A stretch of 64,000 nt of DNA from Dyella dinghuensis (lineage in GTDB: Bacteria; Pseudomonadota; Gammaproteobacteria; Xanthomonadales; Rhodanobacteraceae): assembly GCF_003977615.1 (NCBI RefSeq), contig NZ_RYZR01000004.1:1-64000 (forward strand). The letters run 5' to 3'. The position numbers were made by a program, and so were the translations under genes. Each line of letters opens with the position of its first letter. Position 1 is the first letter of the stretch. Positions 27,129 through 33,906 of the stretch are shown in pieces. The notes below the pieces were generated by a model. It made no database searches. It saw only the letters and a list, made by a program, of their open reading frames with translations, and was not told the DNA's origin.

Positions 27129-27866
27129 ATGACCACGAACCACCCCAACTACGTACCTCGTCATATCGGCATCGTGATGGATGGGAATGGCCGCTGGGCG
27201 AAAGCGCGTCATCGTCCGCGCAGCTTCGGCCATAACGCCGGTCGCAAAGCGGTACGCGAAGTGGTGGAAGGTTGTTTGCGCCATGGCGTCGAAGCACTGA
27301 CGTTATTTGCCTTCTCCAGCGAGAACTGGCAACGCCCGCAGGATGAAGTCGGCGCGTTGATGGATCTGTTCGTGCGCGCGCTTGATAAAGAAGTCGATGA
27401 GCTGCACAGCAACGGCGTGCGATTGCGTTTCATCGGCGAGCTCGGCGCTTTTGACACGTCACTGCGCCAGGGCATGCTCGACGCGATGAAGCGCACCGAG
27501 CGCAACGACAAGTTGCAGATGAACGTCGCCGTCAATTACGGCGGCCGCTGGGACATCGTGCAGGCAGCCCAAAAGGCCGCCCTCGCCGTCGCGCGTGGCG
27601 AGCTGTCCGTGGAAGCCATCGACGAGTCCATGTTCGACCAATGGACCTGCCTTGGCGAGCTTCCACCCCTTGACCTTTTTATCCGCACCGGTGGCGATCG
27701 CCGCGTCAGCAACTTCCTTTTATGGCAGATGGCCTATGCGGAGCTCTATTTCACCGATACGCTTTGGCCGGACTTCAACCAGGTCTCGCTGAAACATGCC
27801 ATTGATGACTTTGCCCGCCGCGAACGCCGTTTTGGCCGCACCGGCGATCAGATCGCCCAAGCCTGA
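27129..27866 (+). CDS. uppS: undecaprenyl diphosphate synthase
   Basis: The 245-residue cis-prenyltransferase makes the C55 carrier lipid for peptidoglycan and LPS O-antigen from farnesyl and isopentenyl diphosphates. Catalytic Asp18 lies in IGIVMDGNGRWAK. Other landmarks are FAFSSENWQRP and the C-terminal DLFIRTGGDRRVSNFLLWQMAYAE. Family members usually read GGExRxSNFLLWQ; here Glu of GGE is Asp. cdsA follows after 16 bases. Confidence 0.96.
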   Translation: MTTNHPNYVPRHIGIVMDGNGRWAKARHRPRSFGHNAGRKAVREVVEGCLRHGVEALTLFAFSSENWQRPQDEVGALMDLFVRALDKEVDELHSNGVRLRFIGELGAFDTSLRQGMLDAMKRTERNDKLQMNVAVNYGGRWDIVQAAQKAALAVARGELSVEAIDESMFDQWTCLGELPPLDLFIRTGGDRRVSNFLLWQMAYAELYFTDTLWPDFNQVSLKHAIDDFARRERRFGRTGDQIAQA

Positions 27867-27882
27867 TCGCTAAGGAACGCTC

Positions 27883-28704
27883 ATGTTGCGCCAGCGCGTC
27901 CTCACTGCCCTGATTCTTGCTCCACTTGTCATCCTGCTGATTCTGTTTTTGCCGACGGATTTCTTCGCCGTCGCACTCGCCGCGGCCTTTCTCGCAGCGA
28001 CCTGGGAATGGTCGCGCCTCTCCGGCATGAAGAACCGCGTTAACCGGGGCATTTTGCTCGGCTTTGCCGCAGTGTTTTTTGTCGTGCTGTGGCTGCTGCG
28101 TAGTTCTGCGTTGCTGTGGCCCGCGGTGATTGCCGCCGGTGTCGCATGGTGGCTGCTGGCGTGCGTATGGCTTCGGCACTTCGCTTTTGGTGCTGCACCG
28201 ACCGCGGAAAATCGAAATCTCAAATTGCTGGCTGGCGCGTTCGTGATTTTCCCTGCATGGGTCGCAGGCGTGAATATTCATGCTGGCGAATCGCACGGCC
28301 ATGCGTGGGTCTTTCTCGCCATGCTGCTGGTGTGGGCCGCCGATACCGGCGCTTACTTTGCCGGCCGCTTCTTTGGCAAACGCAAACTAGCCCCCAACAT
28401 CAGCCCCGGCAAAACGTGGGCTGGCGTTTACGGCGCATTTGTCGCCAGCGCATTGGTGATTCTGGTGGGCGGCTGGTTGTTGGGAGTGCGCGATGCGCGA
28501 CTTATCGGCCTGGTGGTCGTGGCAATTGTGACCGTCGCCAGCTCTATCGTTGGCGATCTGGTGGAAAGCCTGATGAAGCGCCACGCCAGCGTGAAAGATT
28601 CCGGCGCACTATTCCCCGGCCACGGCGGCTTGCTGGACCGCCTCGACAGCGTGTTTGCCGCACTTCCCGTCTTCGCACTCGGAAAGCTGTTGCTCGGGCT
28701 TTGA
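27883..28704 (+). CDS. cdsA: phosphatidate cytidylyltransferase
   Basis: The 273-residue inner-membrane enzyme makes CDP-diacylglycerol from CTP and phosphatidate, the branch point of phospholipid synthesis. Multiple transmembrane helices are visible and the signature SxVGDLxESxxKRxxxxKDSGxxxPGHGGxLDRxDS is complete (residues about 222-258). A GTG or TTG start for the following DXR-like gene overlaps or abuts its stop. Confidence 0.96.
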   Translation: MLRQRVLTALILAPLVILLILFLPTDFFAVALAAAFLAATWEWSRLSGMKNRVNRGILLGFAAVFFVVLWLLRSSALLWPAVIAAGVAWWLLACVWLRHFAFGAAPTAENRNLKLLAGAFVIFPAWVAGVNIHAGESHGHAWVFLAMLLVWAADTGAYFAGRFFGKRKLAPNISPGKTWAGVYGAFVASALVILVGGWLLGVRDARLIGLVVVAIVTVASSIVGDLVESLMKRHASVKDSGALFPGHGGLLDRLDSVFAALPVFALGKLLLGL

Positions 28705-28709
28705 ATTGC

Positions 28710-29882
28710 GTGAGCGCGATCCGCAATGTCGCTGTGTTGGGGGCAACGGGTTCGGTCGGGAAACATACCCTCGATGCTGTAAGTGACGACCCGGATCGTC
28801 TTCGTGCCAGCGTGCTCGTTGCGCACAGCAACGTTGAAGCGCTTGTTGCGCTTTGTATTCGCCATCGGCCCGATCTGGCGATCATTGCAGATACGCAACT
28901 GGAAACCGATCTCGCACGGCGACTCGCCGCCGCAGGCGTTCGTTGCGATGTCGCCAGTGGCCACGAGGCCATCTGCTACGCGGCTGGATCGTCTCTGTGC
29001 GATGTCGTTGTATGCGCCATGACGGGCTTGGCATCGCTCGATGCTGCACTAACTGCGGCACGCGCCGGAAAACGGCTTGTGCTGGCGAATAACGAACCCG
29101 CCGTGATCGCGGGCTCGCTGTTGAGAAACGCAGCCGCCGAAAGTGGCGGTGAAGTAATCCCGTTAAGCACTGCGGCGCATGCGATCGCCCAATACGTCAG
29201 CAACACCCATGCCGATCTCAATCACGCCGATGTCAGGCGCCTGATCCTTACGTCATTCGGCGGCCCCTTCGCGGGACGCACGCGCGCCGACCTTATGACG
29301 GTTACGCCTGATGACCTCGGCGCAACCCCGGGCAAGCTCTCCGATCGCCAACGTGCCGTCGATTCGGCCACCCTGATGAACACGGGCCTGGAGGCCCTCG
29401 CTATCCATCATCTGTTCCTGGCGACCCCGCAGATTCAGGTACGGCTGACCACGCGAAGCATCGCACCCGCCATACTGGAGCGAGCCGACGGGTCAATCCA
29501 AGCGCTAGGGCGCTGGCTCGATGCGCGGTCGGCCATCGATTCGGCGCTTCACGGAGCCGAACTGCCCAACCGCCATCCGATCGGTGAGAGAGAGACCCTA
29601 TCCGCGCTTGCGGCACCCGATCCAGGCGCGTTCCGCTGCCTGACACTCGCACTGGCCGCCCTGCGTGAGGGCGGCGATGCGCCAGCGCTTCTGAATGCCG
29701 CTAACGAGGTCGCCGTAGCGGCCTTTCTGGCAGGGTCCCTACCCTTTCTTTCCATTGCCGACCTAATTGAGCAGGTCCTCACGGAACTGCCGCCGCAGCC
29801 TGTGGTCGATATCCAGACCCTACGCGAACGCGACCGGGCGGCCCGTGCTGCAGCCCGGCGGGTACTTCGCACCGCTTGCTGA
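28710..29882 (+). CDS. DXR-like protein lacking catalytic residues
   Basis: The 390-residue protein occupies the dxr position between cdsA and rseP and aligns end to end with 1-deoxy-D-xylulose 5-phosphate reductoisomerase (usual length about 395). The NADPH-binding GATGSVGKHTL is kept. Most active-site residues (E. coli numbering) are changed: Lys125 to Asn128, Asp150 to Ser153, Glu152 to Ala155, Ser186 to Phe183, His209 to Thr206, Ser222 to Ala216, Lys228 to Thr225. Asn227 and Glu231 remain (Asn224, Glu228). The frame is intact and the C-terminal LNAANEVAVAAFL is normal. It should not work as DXR; its present role is unknown. GTG 28710 is assumed; TTG 28701 is possible. Confidence 0.85.
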   Translation: MSAIRNVAVLGATGSVGKHTLDAVSDDPDRLRASVLVAHSNVEALVALCIRHRPDLAIIADTQLETDLARRLAAAGVRCDVASGHEAICYAAGSSLCDVVVCAMTGLASLDAALTAARAGKRLVLANNEPAVIAGSLLRNAAAESGGEVIPLSTAAHAIAQYVSNTHADLNHADVRRLILTSFGGPFAGRTRADLMTVTPDDLGATPGKLSDRQRAVDSATLMNTGLEALAIHHLFLATPQIQVRLTTRSIAPAILERADGSIQALGRWLDARSAIDSALHGAELPNRHPIGERETLSALAAPDPGAFRCLTLALAALREGGDAPALLNAANEVAVAAFLAGSLPFLSIADLIEQVLTELPPQPVVDIQTLRERDRAARAAARRVLRTAC

Positions 29883-29917
29883 TAAGCTTTGTGCTTCTTT
29901 AGAGACGTACTTGATTG

Positions 29918-31267
29918 ATGAATCCCTTTTTCGGCTCGGTGTTCTGGTTGCTGGTCACGCTCGGCGTGCTGGTGACTTTTCACGAATTCGGACACTACTG
30001 GGTCGCGCGGCGCTGCGGCGTGAAGGTTTTGCGCTTCTCCATCGGCTTCGGCAATGCGATCTGGAAGCGCATCGGCCGCGATGGCACCGAATACCAGATT
30101 GCGGCAATTCCACTGGGCGGCTACGTCAAAATGCTCGATGCGCGCGAAGGTGAAGTCGATCCCGCGCTGCTGCATCAGGAGTTCACCAATCAGTCGATCT
30201 GGAAGCGCATCGCCATCGTCGCTGCCGGTCCTGGCTTCAATATCATTTTCACGATCGCGGCGTTCTGGCTGATGTTCGTGATGGGTCGTACGGACTACGC
30301 ACCCATCGTTACGGCAGAACCGCAAAGTCTTGCTGCACAAGCCGGCATCAAACCGGGCGATCGCATTCTCAGCGTCGGCGGCGAAGCCGTCGTCACGTGG
30401 AGTGGTGCTACCGATGCCATTGCCAATGCATTGCTGGGCCGCTCGCCGCTCCCGGTGACGGTACGCGGCACCGATGGTACGCAGCGTTCCATCGTACTGC
30501 CGCTCAATCGGCTGCCGGCCGGCGAAGATGTCGGCCAGTACATGGACAAGCTCGGAATCCAACCGGCCTCTCCCCCGCCGATTGCCGCCATCGTGCAGCC
30601 GGGCTATCCGGCCGCTACGGCGGGGATGCAGGCGGGCGACCAGGTGGTGAGTGTCAACGGTGTCGCCGTAAAGACTTTCGAAGAGATCGGCAAGCAGATC
30701 ACCGCCGATGCGGTGAAGTCGCCGGTGATGTCGATCGCCATTCTGCGCAACGGCAAGCCGCTGCAGTTCACGTTGACGGCGCGCCTGGACTCCACGGACG
30801 CCAGCAAGCCGTACTGGGCGATTGGTATCGGCGCGCAGCCACCCGAAGCGGCCATCCAGCATTACGGCCCCTTCAAGGCCCTGACCGAATCGCTCGACCT
30901 GACCTGGCAACGGACCACCGAAACCTTCGGCATGGTTAGCAAGATGCTTACCGGCCAGGCATCCACGCGGAACCTCTCCGGCGTGATCGGCATCGCCCAG
31001 GTCGCCAATGCCGCGGCCTCGGCGGGGCTGGACCGATTCCTGGAATTCCTCGGCTTGGTGTCTCTCAGCCTGGCCATCGTCAACCTGTTGCCGATTCCAG
31101 TCTTGGACGGCGGGCACTTGCTGTATTACCTTATCGAGCTGGTCAAGGGCAGCCCGGTCAGTGAGCGGACCATGATCGCGGGTCAGTACGTGGGTCTCGC
31201 CTTGCTGTGCACACTGATGGTGTTGGCGTTTTACAACGACATCCATCGCATCATCCTGCCCTCGTGA
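29918..31267 (+). CDS. rseP: site-2 intramembrane protease RseP
   Basis: The 449-residue zinc metalloprotease cleaves anti-sigma factor RseA within the inner membrane to release the envelope stress sigma factor, and clears signal peptide remnants. The zinc site HEFGH is at residues 22-26 in the first helix, a tandem PDZ region spans about 115-300, and the third ligand Asp is in LLPIPVLDGGHLLYY. ATG 29918 is preferred to the TTG three bases upstream. bamA lies 224 bases downstream. Confidence 0.96.
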   Translation: MNPFFGSVFWLLVTLGVLVTFHEFGHYWVARRCGVKVLRFSIGFGNAIWKRIGRDGTEYQIAAIPLGGYVKMLDAREGEVDPALLHQEFTNQSIWKRIAIVAAGPGFNIIFTIAAFWLMFVMGRTDYAPIVTAEPQSLAAQAGIKPGDRILSVGGEAVVTWSGATDAIANALLGRSPLPVTVRGTDGTQRSIVLPLNRLPAGEDVGQYMDKLGIQPASPPPIAAIVQPGYPAATAGMQAGDQVVSVNGVAVKTFEEIGKQITADAVKSPVMSIAILRNGKPLQFTLTARLDSTDASKPYWAIGIGAQPPEAAIQHYGPFKALTESLDLTWQRTTETFGMVSKMLTGQASTRNLSGVIGIAQVANAAASAGLDRFLEFLGLVSLSLAIVNLLPIPVLDGGHLLYYLIELVKGSPVSERTMIAGQYVGLALLCTLMVLAFYNDIHRIILPS

Positions 31268-31491
31268 TACGGATGCGCGCCGCTGACAACCTCTGGTTGG
31301 ATGCTGGCCGCCGCTTCTGTGCCGCGTGGCAAATCACCCGCAACGTGCGGCTTCCCGGTGTAGTTCAGCCGGCCATGCCAAGCGCAAGTGCGGACAAAAC
31401 TTAAAGGATCGGGCTTGTCCCGGTTCGGGAAGAAAAATACAGCGCAGCGATCGAATGATCGCTTCGTCCGAATAACACAACGGAATCGACG

Positions 31492-33906
31492 ATGAAGCGT
31501 ATCGCCGCCCTGATCCTGCTTGCCTCCCTTTCAACGAGTGTGCTTGCACTCGAACCATTCGTCGTTTCTGACATCCGTATCGAAGGTCTCAGCCGCATCT
31601 CCGCGGGCACGGTATTCAACTACCTGCAGATCAACAAAGGCGATCGTCTTAGCAACGAAGAAGCCCAACAGGCTATTCGCGCCCTGTACAACACCAAGTT
31701 CTTCAGCGATGTGGAACTGGAACGCGATGGCGACATCCTGGTGGTGAAGGTGGTCGAGCGCCCCTCCATTGCCAAGCTCACCATCCGCGGCAACAACGAC
31801 ATCAAGACCGACGACTTGAAGAAGGGCCTGAAGGATATCGGCCTGACTGAAGGCGAAACCTTTGATCGCCTTTCGCTTGATCGCGTGCAGCAGGAACTGA
31901 TTCGTCAGTACTACAACCGCGGCAAATACAACGTATCGGTGATTCCGCACGTGACCGAGCTGGATCGCAATCGTGTCGCCATCGATATCGAAATCCGCGA
32001 AGGCAAGGTTGCCAAGATCAAGGAAGTGAACATCGTAGGCAACACGGCGTTCACCACTCGCGAGATCGAAAAAGATTTCGAATCCGGCACCACCAACTGG
32101 CTGTCCTGGTATTCGAAGAACGACCAGTATTCGCAGGAAAAACTCTCGGGCGACCTGAAGAAACTGCAGTCGTACTACATGGACCGCGGTTACGCCGACT
32201 TCGGCCTGGATTCCTCGCAGGTGACGATCTCGCCCGACAAACGCGCGATGTACATCGACGCGGATGTGGTCCAGGGCGACATCTACCATATCTCCGACAC
32301 GCATCTGCTCGGTCAGCTGATCCTGCCGGAAGCGACGCTGCGCCAGCTCGTGTTCGTGAAGAATGGCGACTTGTTCAATCGTCGCGCGATCGAAGCCACG
32401 TCCGATGCGATCAAGGCCACGCTGGCTAACATCGGTTACGCCTTTGCCAAGGTCAACTCGGTACCCAAGCTCGACAAGAGCGCCCACACCGCCGACATCA
32501 CCTGGTACATCCAGCCTGGCCCGCGCGTGTATGTGCGCCGAGTGATCTTCCAGGGCAATACGCGTACCGAAGACGATGTGCTGCGTCGTGAAATGCGTCA
32601 GCTGGAAGGCGCCTGGTATTCGCAAGCGGCGATCGACCGTTCCAAGATCCGCCTGCAACAGCTGGGCTACTTCAAGACGGTCACCATCGACAAACAGACC
32701 GTCCCCGGTAGCGACGATGAGGTCGATCTGACGGTGAAGGTGGAAGAACAGTCCGCCGGCAGCCTGACGTTTGGCGTGGGTTACTCGCAGTATTCGGGCA
32801 TCATCCTGTCGAGCTCGGTGTCGCAGAAAAACTTCCTCGGTACCGGCGATCAGTTCAGCGTCAGCGCAGAGCGCAGCGATTACCTCACGCAGATCAGCGC
32901 GAGTTACTACAACCCGTTCCTGACCGATAGCGGTGTCGGCATCGGCTACAACGCGTCGTTCTCGCGCGCCGATTACGCCGACCTGGGCAGCCAGTACGCA
33001 AGCTATTCGAACAGCACCAAGTCATTCTCGACCACGCTGGGTTTCCCGATCACCGACTTCGATAGTTTGAGAGGCAGTCTTGGTATCGGCAGCACCAAGC
33101 TCAACACGTACGTCGGCTACACCCCGCAGATCCTCGTTGACTACATCAACGCCTTGGGTCACGACACCATCCATTCGTGGACGGGCTCATTAAGCTGGGT
33201 GCACGACACGCGCAACTCGTATTGGGCACCTACTCACGGTGGCCAGCTGACTGCCACGGTCAACGTCGCATTGCCGGGTTCGACCGTGCAGTACTGGACG
33301 TTCAACGGCGAAGCCAATCATTACTGGCCGATCGGCAAGGGCTTCGTGCTCTATCTAGACGGCAAGGTTGGTTATGGCAACACGTACGGTAACCAGACGT
33401 ACGAATTCAATACGGCAGACGGTGAATACAAAGCTGGCCAGACGATTGCTTTCCCGTTCTGGATGAATTTCTACGCTGGCGGTGTGACCGACGTGCGTGG
33501 CTTCCAGGACAACACCCTTGGTCCGCGCGCGTGCGCGGGCCAAACGACTGCTGGCGGGCCGATCACACCGCAGTCGAACGGTTACTGCCCCGGCAGTACC
33601 TATTCCTATTCACAGCCGATCGGTGGTGCATTCAAGGTGCTCGGCACGGCGGAACTGTATCTGCCACTGCCGTTCCTGAAGGACATCAACACCGCTCGCG
33701 TAGCGTGGTTCGTCGACGTCGGCCAGGCCTTCCCAACCATCAGCGATTTCCGCACCAGCCAGCTCGATGCCTCCACCGGTGTGTCGCTGCACTGGCAGGC
33801 ACCGATCGGCCCGCTGATCATCAGCCTGGGCTTCCCGTTCCGCAAACAGCCGGGCGACAGCCAGTACACCGAACGCATTCAGTTCACCTTCGGCAGCCAG
33901 TTCTAA
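31492..33906 (+). CDS. bamA: outer membrane protein assembly factor BamA
   Basis: The 804-residue Omp85 protein inserts beta-barrel proteins in the outer membrane. It has a signal peptide (cleavage likely after SVLA, residue 19), five POTRA domains (about 22-425) and a C-terminal 16-strand barrel ending in FTFGSQF with terminal Phe. The conserved barrel VRGF motif is present (DVRGFQDNTLGP). The 224-base gap upstream probably holds its own promoter, though none is clear to me. An intrinsic terminator follows and skp is absent. Confidence 0.97.
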   Translation: MKRIAALILLASLSTSVLALEPFVVSDIRIEGLSRISAGTVFNYLQINKGDRLSNEEAQQAIRALYNTKFFSDVELERDGDILVVKVVERPSIAKLTIRGNNDIKTDDLKKGLKDIGLTEGETFDRLSLDRVQQELIRQYYNRGKYNVSVIPHVTELDRNRVAIDIEIREGKVAKIKEVNIVGNTAFTTREIEKDFESGTTNWLSWYSKNDQYSQEKLSGDLKKLQSYYMDRGYADFGLDSSQVTISPDKRAMYIDADVVQGDIYHISDTHLLGQLILPEATLRQLVFVKNGDLFNRRAIEATSDAIKATLANIGYAFAKVNSVPKLDKSAHTADITWYIQPGPRVYVRRVIFQGNTRTEDDVLRREMRQLEGAWYSQAAIDRSKIRLQQLGYFKTVTIDKQTVPGSDDEVDLTVKVEEQSAGSLTFGVGYSQYSGIILSSSVSQKNFLGTGDQFSVSAERSDYLTQISASYYNPFLTDSGVGIGYNASFSRADYADLGSQYASYSNSTKSFSTTLGFPITDFDSLRGSLGIGSTKLNTYVGYTPQILVDYINALGHDTIHSWTGSLSWVHDTRNSYWAPTHGGQLTATVNVALPGSTVQYWTFNGEANHYWPIGKGFVLYLDGKVGYGNTYGNQTYEFNTADGEYKAGQTIAFPFWMNFYAGGVTDVRGFQDNTLGPRACAGQTTAGGPITPQSNGYCPGSTYSYSQPIGGAFKVLGTAELYLPLPFLKDINTARVAWFVDVGQAFPTISDFRTSQLDASTGVSLHWQAPIGPLIISLGFPFRKQPGDSQYTERIQFTFGSQF

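Follow-up and report, generated by a model that had tools for sequence, protein, structure and literature searches.

Why does a gene that has very likely lost the DXR reaction still stand as an open frame at the dxr locus of Dyella dinghuensis? We analyzed the first 64,000 nucleotides of contig NZ_RYZR01000004.1 (assembly GCF_003977615.1; hereafter, the window), in which the frame lies in the following neighborhood.

Positions 27883 to 28704, + strand: cdsA, the upstream neighbor, named from an NF008635 match under the cut-off and from synteny with Escherichia coli.
Positions 28710 to 29882, + strand: the dxr-like open reading frame (ORF), 390 amino acids, a DXR homologue judged to be a catalytically dead relic.
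Positions 29918 to 31267, + strand: rseP, TIGR00054 over the cut-off, likely start codon ATG at 29918.
Positions 31492 to 33906, + strand: bamA, the downstream gene, named by synteny with E. coli.

The frame is open over 390 codons (28710 to 29882), starts with GTG, and begins 5 bases after the cdsA stop codon. Its product matches TIGR00243 end to end (model positions 2 to 388 of 389) with 239.5 bits, below the curated equivalog cut-off of 315.7 bits, and matches all three DXR domains (PF02670, PF08436, and PF13288), which bears out the full-length homology with DXR described in an initial annotation of this DNA. Solved DXR chains match the ORF as strongly as E = 5e-56. The AlphaFold2 prediction has a mean pLDDT of 88.5, with block means of 86 to 98 in codons 1 to 150 and 301 to 390 and of 61 to 93 between them. 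The NADPH motif (GATGSVG) is retained, as first described. A whole-genome check for a second dxr, which had been proposed, left the ORF as the sole DXR match in the 4.2-Mb genome, and a second dxr was rejected.

Key residues were mapped against E. coli DXR (from NC_000913); the set of ten and their roles as metal ligands or in substrate binding are assumed here, partly after the initial annotation. The ORF product carries K125N, D150S, S151T, E152A, S186F, H209T, and K228T and keeps Ser222, Asn227, and Glu231 (3/10). Nine of the ten positions (D150 to E231) lie inside the catalytic domain, and Lys125 aligns upstream, at 29091. Six of the seven substitutions named initially (K125N, D150S, E152A, S186F, H209T, and K228T) were recovered, and the seventh, Ser222 to Ala, was not: Ser222 is kept within VDSATLMN (position 29364), and the Ala in question aligns with Ser219, a three-residue alignment slip. 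The alignment also rejects the idea that the catalytic residues have moved elsewhere in the sequence. All ten residues are present in the four orthodox relatives of other genera that were tabulated. With metal- and substrate-binding residues changed, the DXR reaction has very likely been lost, in agreement with the initial annotation. That the ORF encodes a working DXR with unusual residues is barely credible: the retained Ser222, Asn227, and Glu231 speak for it, but two of the three metal ligands (D150 and E152) are changed, as are Lys228, His209, and Ser186, and the genome has no IspF, IspG, or IspH, with IspD not over the cut-off.

Isoprenoid genes were compared among 16 Dyella genomes (including that of D. 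dinghuensis, G000) and in a family sample of 197 Rhodanobacteraceae genomes. HMG-CoA reductase is present in 16/16 Dyella genomes and in 36/197 of the family sample. DXS is likewise found in 16/16 Dyella genomes, IspG and IspF in 0/16, and IspH in a single genome (G180); no IspD is over the cut-off in any of them, and the weak partial matches of 20 to 39 bits present in all 16 we take to be other nucleotidyltransferases. The mevalonate cluster of D. dinghuensis encodes IDI, a fused HMG-CoA reductase-mevalonate kinase, and MVD, all over NCBIfam cut-offs, together with a phosphomevalonate-kinase-like protein (TIGR01220, 74.9 bits versus a cut-off of 165.7); a motif scan found no HMG-CoA synthase in the approximately 100 kb at the cluster. 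Since IspF and IspG are absent and mevalonate genes are present, the MEP pathway is gone and the mevalonate cluster stands in its place, which agrees with the view of the initial annotation that IPP must come from elsewhere. DXP is needed for thiamine and vitamin B6, and DXS is presumably retained for these.

The mevalonate cluster is flanked (L072, 5223 to 7487 and 13424 to 16084) by genes for radical SAM proteins and glycosyltransferases, which we take to resemble hopanoid genes. G180, the sole genome of the 16 with IspH, also has the highest-scoring IspE (L098, G180:C222; L101); its IspH adjoins what we presume to be an lspA-like gene. This genome may represent an early stage of loss or contamination (4%). 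Elsewhere in the family, HMG-CoA reductase also occurs in five other genera, and nine genomes have no DXR match (G024, G042, G070, G083, G096, G107, G118, G128 [genus g24], and G130 [g26]); given these observations, the pathway swap may have occurred more than once in the family.

DXR matches were found in 169/197 genomes of the family sample and, within Dyella, in 7/16 (G000, G038, G154, G163, G135, G115, and G172). The number of key residues kept falls from 10/10 in G038 through 4 of the 9 readable in G172 (where DXR is in two pieces in different frames) to 3 in G000, 2 in G115, 1 each in G154 and G135, and 0 in G163. Frames without premature stops are found in G000, G154, G163, G135, and G115; that of G172 is broken, although its genome is 86% complete and the break could be an error. 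Replacements at the key positions differ between lineages and none is shared, which argues against a shared new active site in the dead copies, and that candidate was ruled out. Eight further genomes have a cdsA-rseP gap of 164 to 266 bases with no DXR frame; in four of these gene-less junctions, the final dxr codons, which are conserved 3' DNA, are matched weakly (E = 5e-4 to 8e-3). G180 has no DXR match and cdsA was not found in it either; it is excluded from the 15 readable junctions. In a neighbor-gene tree, six of the gene-less genomes group in a well-supported clade; the other two, G017 and G080, are weakly placed, and we estimate two to three losses of dxr.

G038 (L034 and L073) combines ten key residues and strong constraint with the absence of IspF, IspG, and IspH, and its DXR product has no obvious use. 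Genera g14 and g19 include fourteen genomes with two DXR matches each (L002 to L014 and L016); the DXR copy at these loci is followed by an unrelated gene, and rseP does not lie closely downstream.

For the analysis of selection, the frame was divided as follows.

Positions 28710 to 29159, + strand: NADPH-binding (N) domain, codons 1 to 150, protein constraint kept.
Positions 29160 to 29609, + strand: catalytic domain, codons 151 to 300, relaxed.
Positions 29610 to 29759, + strand: C-terminal helical (C) domain, codons 301 to 350, protein constraint with ordinary synonymous turnover.

A codon branch model over codons 1 to 350 gave omega values of 0.18 for the five dead branches, 0.083 for G038, 0.073 for the outgroups, and 1.2 on short inner branches; some parts of the branch tree have weak support, and with synonymous distances near saturation and some pairwise fits diverging, the omega contrasts are firmer than the values. 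An omega of 1 in the dead branches was rejected (2 dlnL, 281). Divided by domain (N/catalytic/C), omega was 0.12/0.32/0.07 in the dead branches and 0.10/0.06/0.04 in the outgroups, or 0.21/0.55/0.12 and 0.13/0.08/0.05 when branch lengths were capped at 2.5. A functional-then-neutral model with one fraction for all domains was rejected (2 dlnL, 101; 139 with the lower cap), and because a single death time does not fit all domains, selection acts on something more than a passive relic.

Counted over the five dead copies, invariant polar, Gly, and Pro residues are kept at 79/100 positions in the N domain, 79/217 (36%) in the catalytic domain, and 22/25 in the C domain, and hydrophobic residues at 224/240, 200/257 (78%), and 99/100, respectively. 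The neutral residue-retention simulation covered the catalytic domain only and yielded 40% (standard deviation [SD], 6) for the polar, Gly, and Pro class and 69% (SD, 6; maximum, 87%) for the hydrophobic class; the D. dinghuensis copy keeps 49% and 78% there. The new substrate suggested in the initial annotation would agree with the open frame, the retained NADPH motif, and the 49% of polar positions kept in this copy, somewhat above the neutral 40% (SD, 6). It is nonetheless very improbable, as the five dead lineages differ at the active site, with 0 to 3 of ten residues kept and no common replacement, and as the 36% kept over all five copies, versus 40% under neutrality, leaves the catalytic domain near free.

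The five dead full-length copies contain no stops, and their 12 internal gap events are all of whole codons (three at one shared position). Neutral drift simulated (200 runs) to a catalytic-domain divergence of 0.4 to 0.5 produced on average 4.1 to 5.5 stops, and 1.5% of runs stayed free of them; at a divergence of 0.2, the average was 1.9 stops, and 15.5% of runs had none. Wholly neutral drift of the dxr copies was ruled out by the omega test together with the stop simulation. The ORF has none of the ordinary marks of a pseudogene, neither stops or frameshifts nor loss of constraint over the whole gene. The earlier view that it is not decaying is thus right for the open frame and for two constrained domains and wrong for the catalytic domain, which is drifting.

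Two explanations of this pattern were weighed, each of them possible but doubtful and each compatible with a promoter function for the locus (below). In the first, the product is a retained pseudoenzyme with a noncatalytic job in its N and C domains, for example binding of NADPH or of a partner. The domain contrast in omega among dead branches and the rejection of a common death time point that way, as do the hydrophobic positions kept in all three domains, the five lineages without stops, and the constraint on G038 throughout its length though IspF, IspG, and IspH are absent. Such a job would have to be dispensable, since no DXR frame remains in eight genomes with a read junction and that of G172 is broken. 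The noncatalytic role proposed initially thereby gains some support from N- and C-domain constraint. In the second, the frame is kept for operon reasons, translation shielding the cdsA-rseP message from Rho, so that selection would purge stops and frameshifts whatever the amino acid sequence; this would suit the stop-free state of the five dead full-length copies, the 5-base distance from the cdsA stop codon, and the short gap (164 to 266 bases) left where the gene is lost. The amino acid constraint in the N and C domains is not predicted by shielding, and the frame break in G172 counts against it, with the reservation that this genome is 86% complete and the break a possible error.

The 3' end of the frame shows a different kind of constraint, which the initial annotation had overlooked along with the promoter-like element and leader found there. 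Four-fold divergence is 0.45 to 0.66 in 30-codon windows over codons 1 to 360 and 0.14 to 0.35 in 10-codon windows of codons 351 to 390; 10-codon windows between codons 281 and 350 show 35 to 75%, and neighboring genes 32 to 48%. The last 40 codons of dxr are conserved as DNA. Two elements were placed in and behind this part.

Positions 29783 to 29811, + strand: sigmaE/ECF-like promoter within the dxr frame, with rseP-bamA as its predicted target.
Positions 29859 to 29913, + strand: rseP leader, a predicted and weakly supported structure with an outer helix (29859 to 29865 paired with 29907 to 29913).

The promoter-like element consists of a -35 box (GGAACTG, 29783 to 29789), 15 nucleotides, and a -10 box (GTCGATA, 29805 to 29811), a spacing of GGAACTG and GTCGA that we take to be typical of sigmaE promoters. 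GGAACTG-N15-GTCGA recurs 123 to 136 nucleotides before the rseP ATG in 15/15 junctions, 8 of them without dxr, and ATGAATCC, which points to the likely rseP start, is found in 15/15. The pattern GGAACT-N14-17-GTCGATA, which was picked after the alignment had been seen, has one match in the 64-kb window (0.01 expected); a looser pattern, with 3 matches versus 1.7 expected in the window, is no rarer than chance. Across 23 Dyella stretches (336 kb; 671,836 bases on both strands), GGAAC-N16-18-GTCGA is confined to the 7 that hold the junction. Among 30 family loci, rseP lies close behind dxr in 16, and the motif is inside the orthodox dxr in 5 of these 16 and absent from 11; its presence in orthodox outgroup dxr genes means that the motif predates dxr loss. 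A sixth locus (L025), with a loose match downstream of dxr unlike the others, was left out of this count. The -35 box matches the sigmaE consensus well, and the -10 box (GTCGAT) differs from GTCAAA at two positions (consensus as given in PMC1804206). A sigma70 scan of positions 28600 to 30000 gave one terminator-like site (29732 to 29745; 1.2 expected) but nothing promoter-like (0.4 expected). We infer that 29783 to 29811 is an active promoter of rseP-bamA.

The leader of about 55 bases between promoter and rseP is nearly invariant, and within it an inner hairpin is predicted at 29874 to 29887, with the dxr stop codon in its loop. Every lettered cell of the alignment is paired in the proposed outer helix; changes are one-sided at three pairs and two-sided at none; sliding the helix partners by 1 to 3 columns reduced pairing to 14 to 54%. 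A shuffle control equaled the observed covariation in 500/500 cases, so covariation lends the helix no support, and four of the 15 leaders folded alone had z-scores of -0.45 to -1.74. The leader structure is offered as a proposal. Rfam returned two chance-level matches over 27800 to 31600 (13 to 14 bits; E = 3.7 and 4.1) and no matches up to E = 1 at the loci of three relatives.

The explanation that we consider probable is that the ORF is a relic of dxr held in place by its embedded promoter after the mevalonate route took over from the MEP pathway, possibly with a residual noncatalytic role. The genus would have exchanged one pathway for the other; as nothing then used the MEP route, DXR catalysis would have disappeared independently in several lineages, and others would have shed the gene altogether. 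The locus could not be wholly removed because its last 100 bases or so would form the sigmaE-like promoter and the start of the leader, DNA that every lineage read, with or without dxr, retains. We take rseP-bamA, by analogy with E. coli, and prs (below) to be essential. The frame may be held open because the message continues into essential genes, and selection may still act on the N and C domains at the protein level, whether for folding or for a noncatalytic task. The promoter accounts for the 3' end only and not for protein constraint in codons 1 to 150 and 301 to 350, and the G038 copy (10/10 residues; omega, approximately 0.08) is not predicted if DXR has had no use since the swap. Noncatalytic retention and shielding from Rho can both hold alongside the promoter-held relic, and the likelihoods given to the three are not additive. 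A stronger version, in which DXR became a pseudoenzyme whose N and C domains carry a selected noncatalytic role, its catalytic domain was freed to drift in parallel in at least five lineages, and the gene doubles as the rseP-bamA promoter, is put forward tentatively and is on balance unlikely.

A second MEP gene, ispE, probably took the same course before prs as dxr before rseP-bamA. In Dyella, a GNAT acetyltransferase domain opens the frame and ispE makes up its C-terminal part; in D. dinghuensis, this fusion lies at L103:3819-5198 (contig C8, - strand), and the decayed IspE part still passes TIGR00154 (179.5 bits versus a cut-off of 138.7) with its ATP loop lost (PRHVGLGDESST versus PMGGGLGGGSSN in E. 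coli). At the locus, 10/16 genomes have an IspE over the cut-off, G017 has a partial one, and 5 have none there; other GHMP kinases give weak IspE matches in all 16. In the five relatives without it, the GNAT part alone is followed by a promoter-like pair, a tRNA, and prs. This pair, TTGACACG...ACAATT, which we presume to be of sigma70 type, is found 347 to 602 bases before the prs match in 16/16 genomes, including the 5 without ispE. In D. dinghuensis, ispE and prs are separated by a tRNA-Gln, whose sequence is found upstream of prs in 15/16 genomes but not in G051. Four-fold divergence of ispE is approximately 0.3 in the last 130 codons versus 0.43 to 0.69 before them (six more decayed copies).

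One genus thus displays the dismantling of a pathway after its replacement, with copies that look intact, are damaged, are dead but open, are split, or are gone. Gene order is suggested to decide what lingers: two MEP genes that seem to hold the promoters of essential neighbors persist, and ispD, ispF, and ispG are found in 0/16 genomes. The dead copies amount to a natural experiment on the parts of an enzyme that selection still sees, and annotation pipelines and drug-target lists may label such a gene dxr. Among the matches listed in a search of literature titles, with subscription journals mostly outside it, none dealt with a mevalonate swap in Dyella, with an rseP promoter inside dxr, or with a DXR pseudoenzyme.

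Compared with orthodox DXR, the ORF has full-length homology, the cdsA-rseP-bamA neighbors, the NADPH motif, and a confidently predicted fold of the same length, but it lacks 7/10 key residues, scores below the curated cut-off, and belongs to a species from whose genome IspF, IspG, and IspH are absent. DXR-II (DRL), described as an alternative reductoisomerase in PMC3847144, likewise bypasses a loss of DXR but would be useless without IspF and IspG. A mevalonate pathway with no or an incomplete MEP pathway was counted in 541 of 4,400 species (PMC10663253). An incomplete MEP set beside a complete mevalonate pathway is reported for Listeria and some Streptococcus and Enterococcus species in PMC13001223; there, as in Dyella, mevalonate makes IPP and part of the MEP set lingers. 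For some of those species the remnant is discussed as a source of MEcDP, whereas in Dyella IspF is found in 0/16 genomes and most DXR copies (not that of G038) miss key residues. The sigmaE promoters of envelope-stress genes, given with -35 GGAACTTTT and -10 GTCAAA in PMC1804206, resemble the GGAACTG and GTCGA before rseP-bamA; unlike them, the putative Dyella promoter differs in its -10 box, lies within the coding frame of a metabolic gene that is dead, and outlives that gene.
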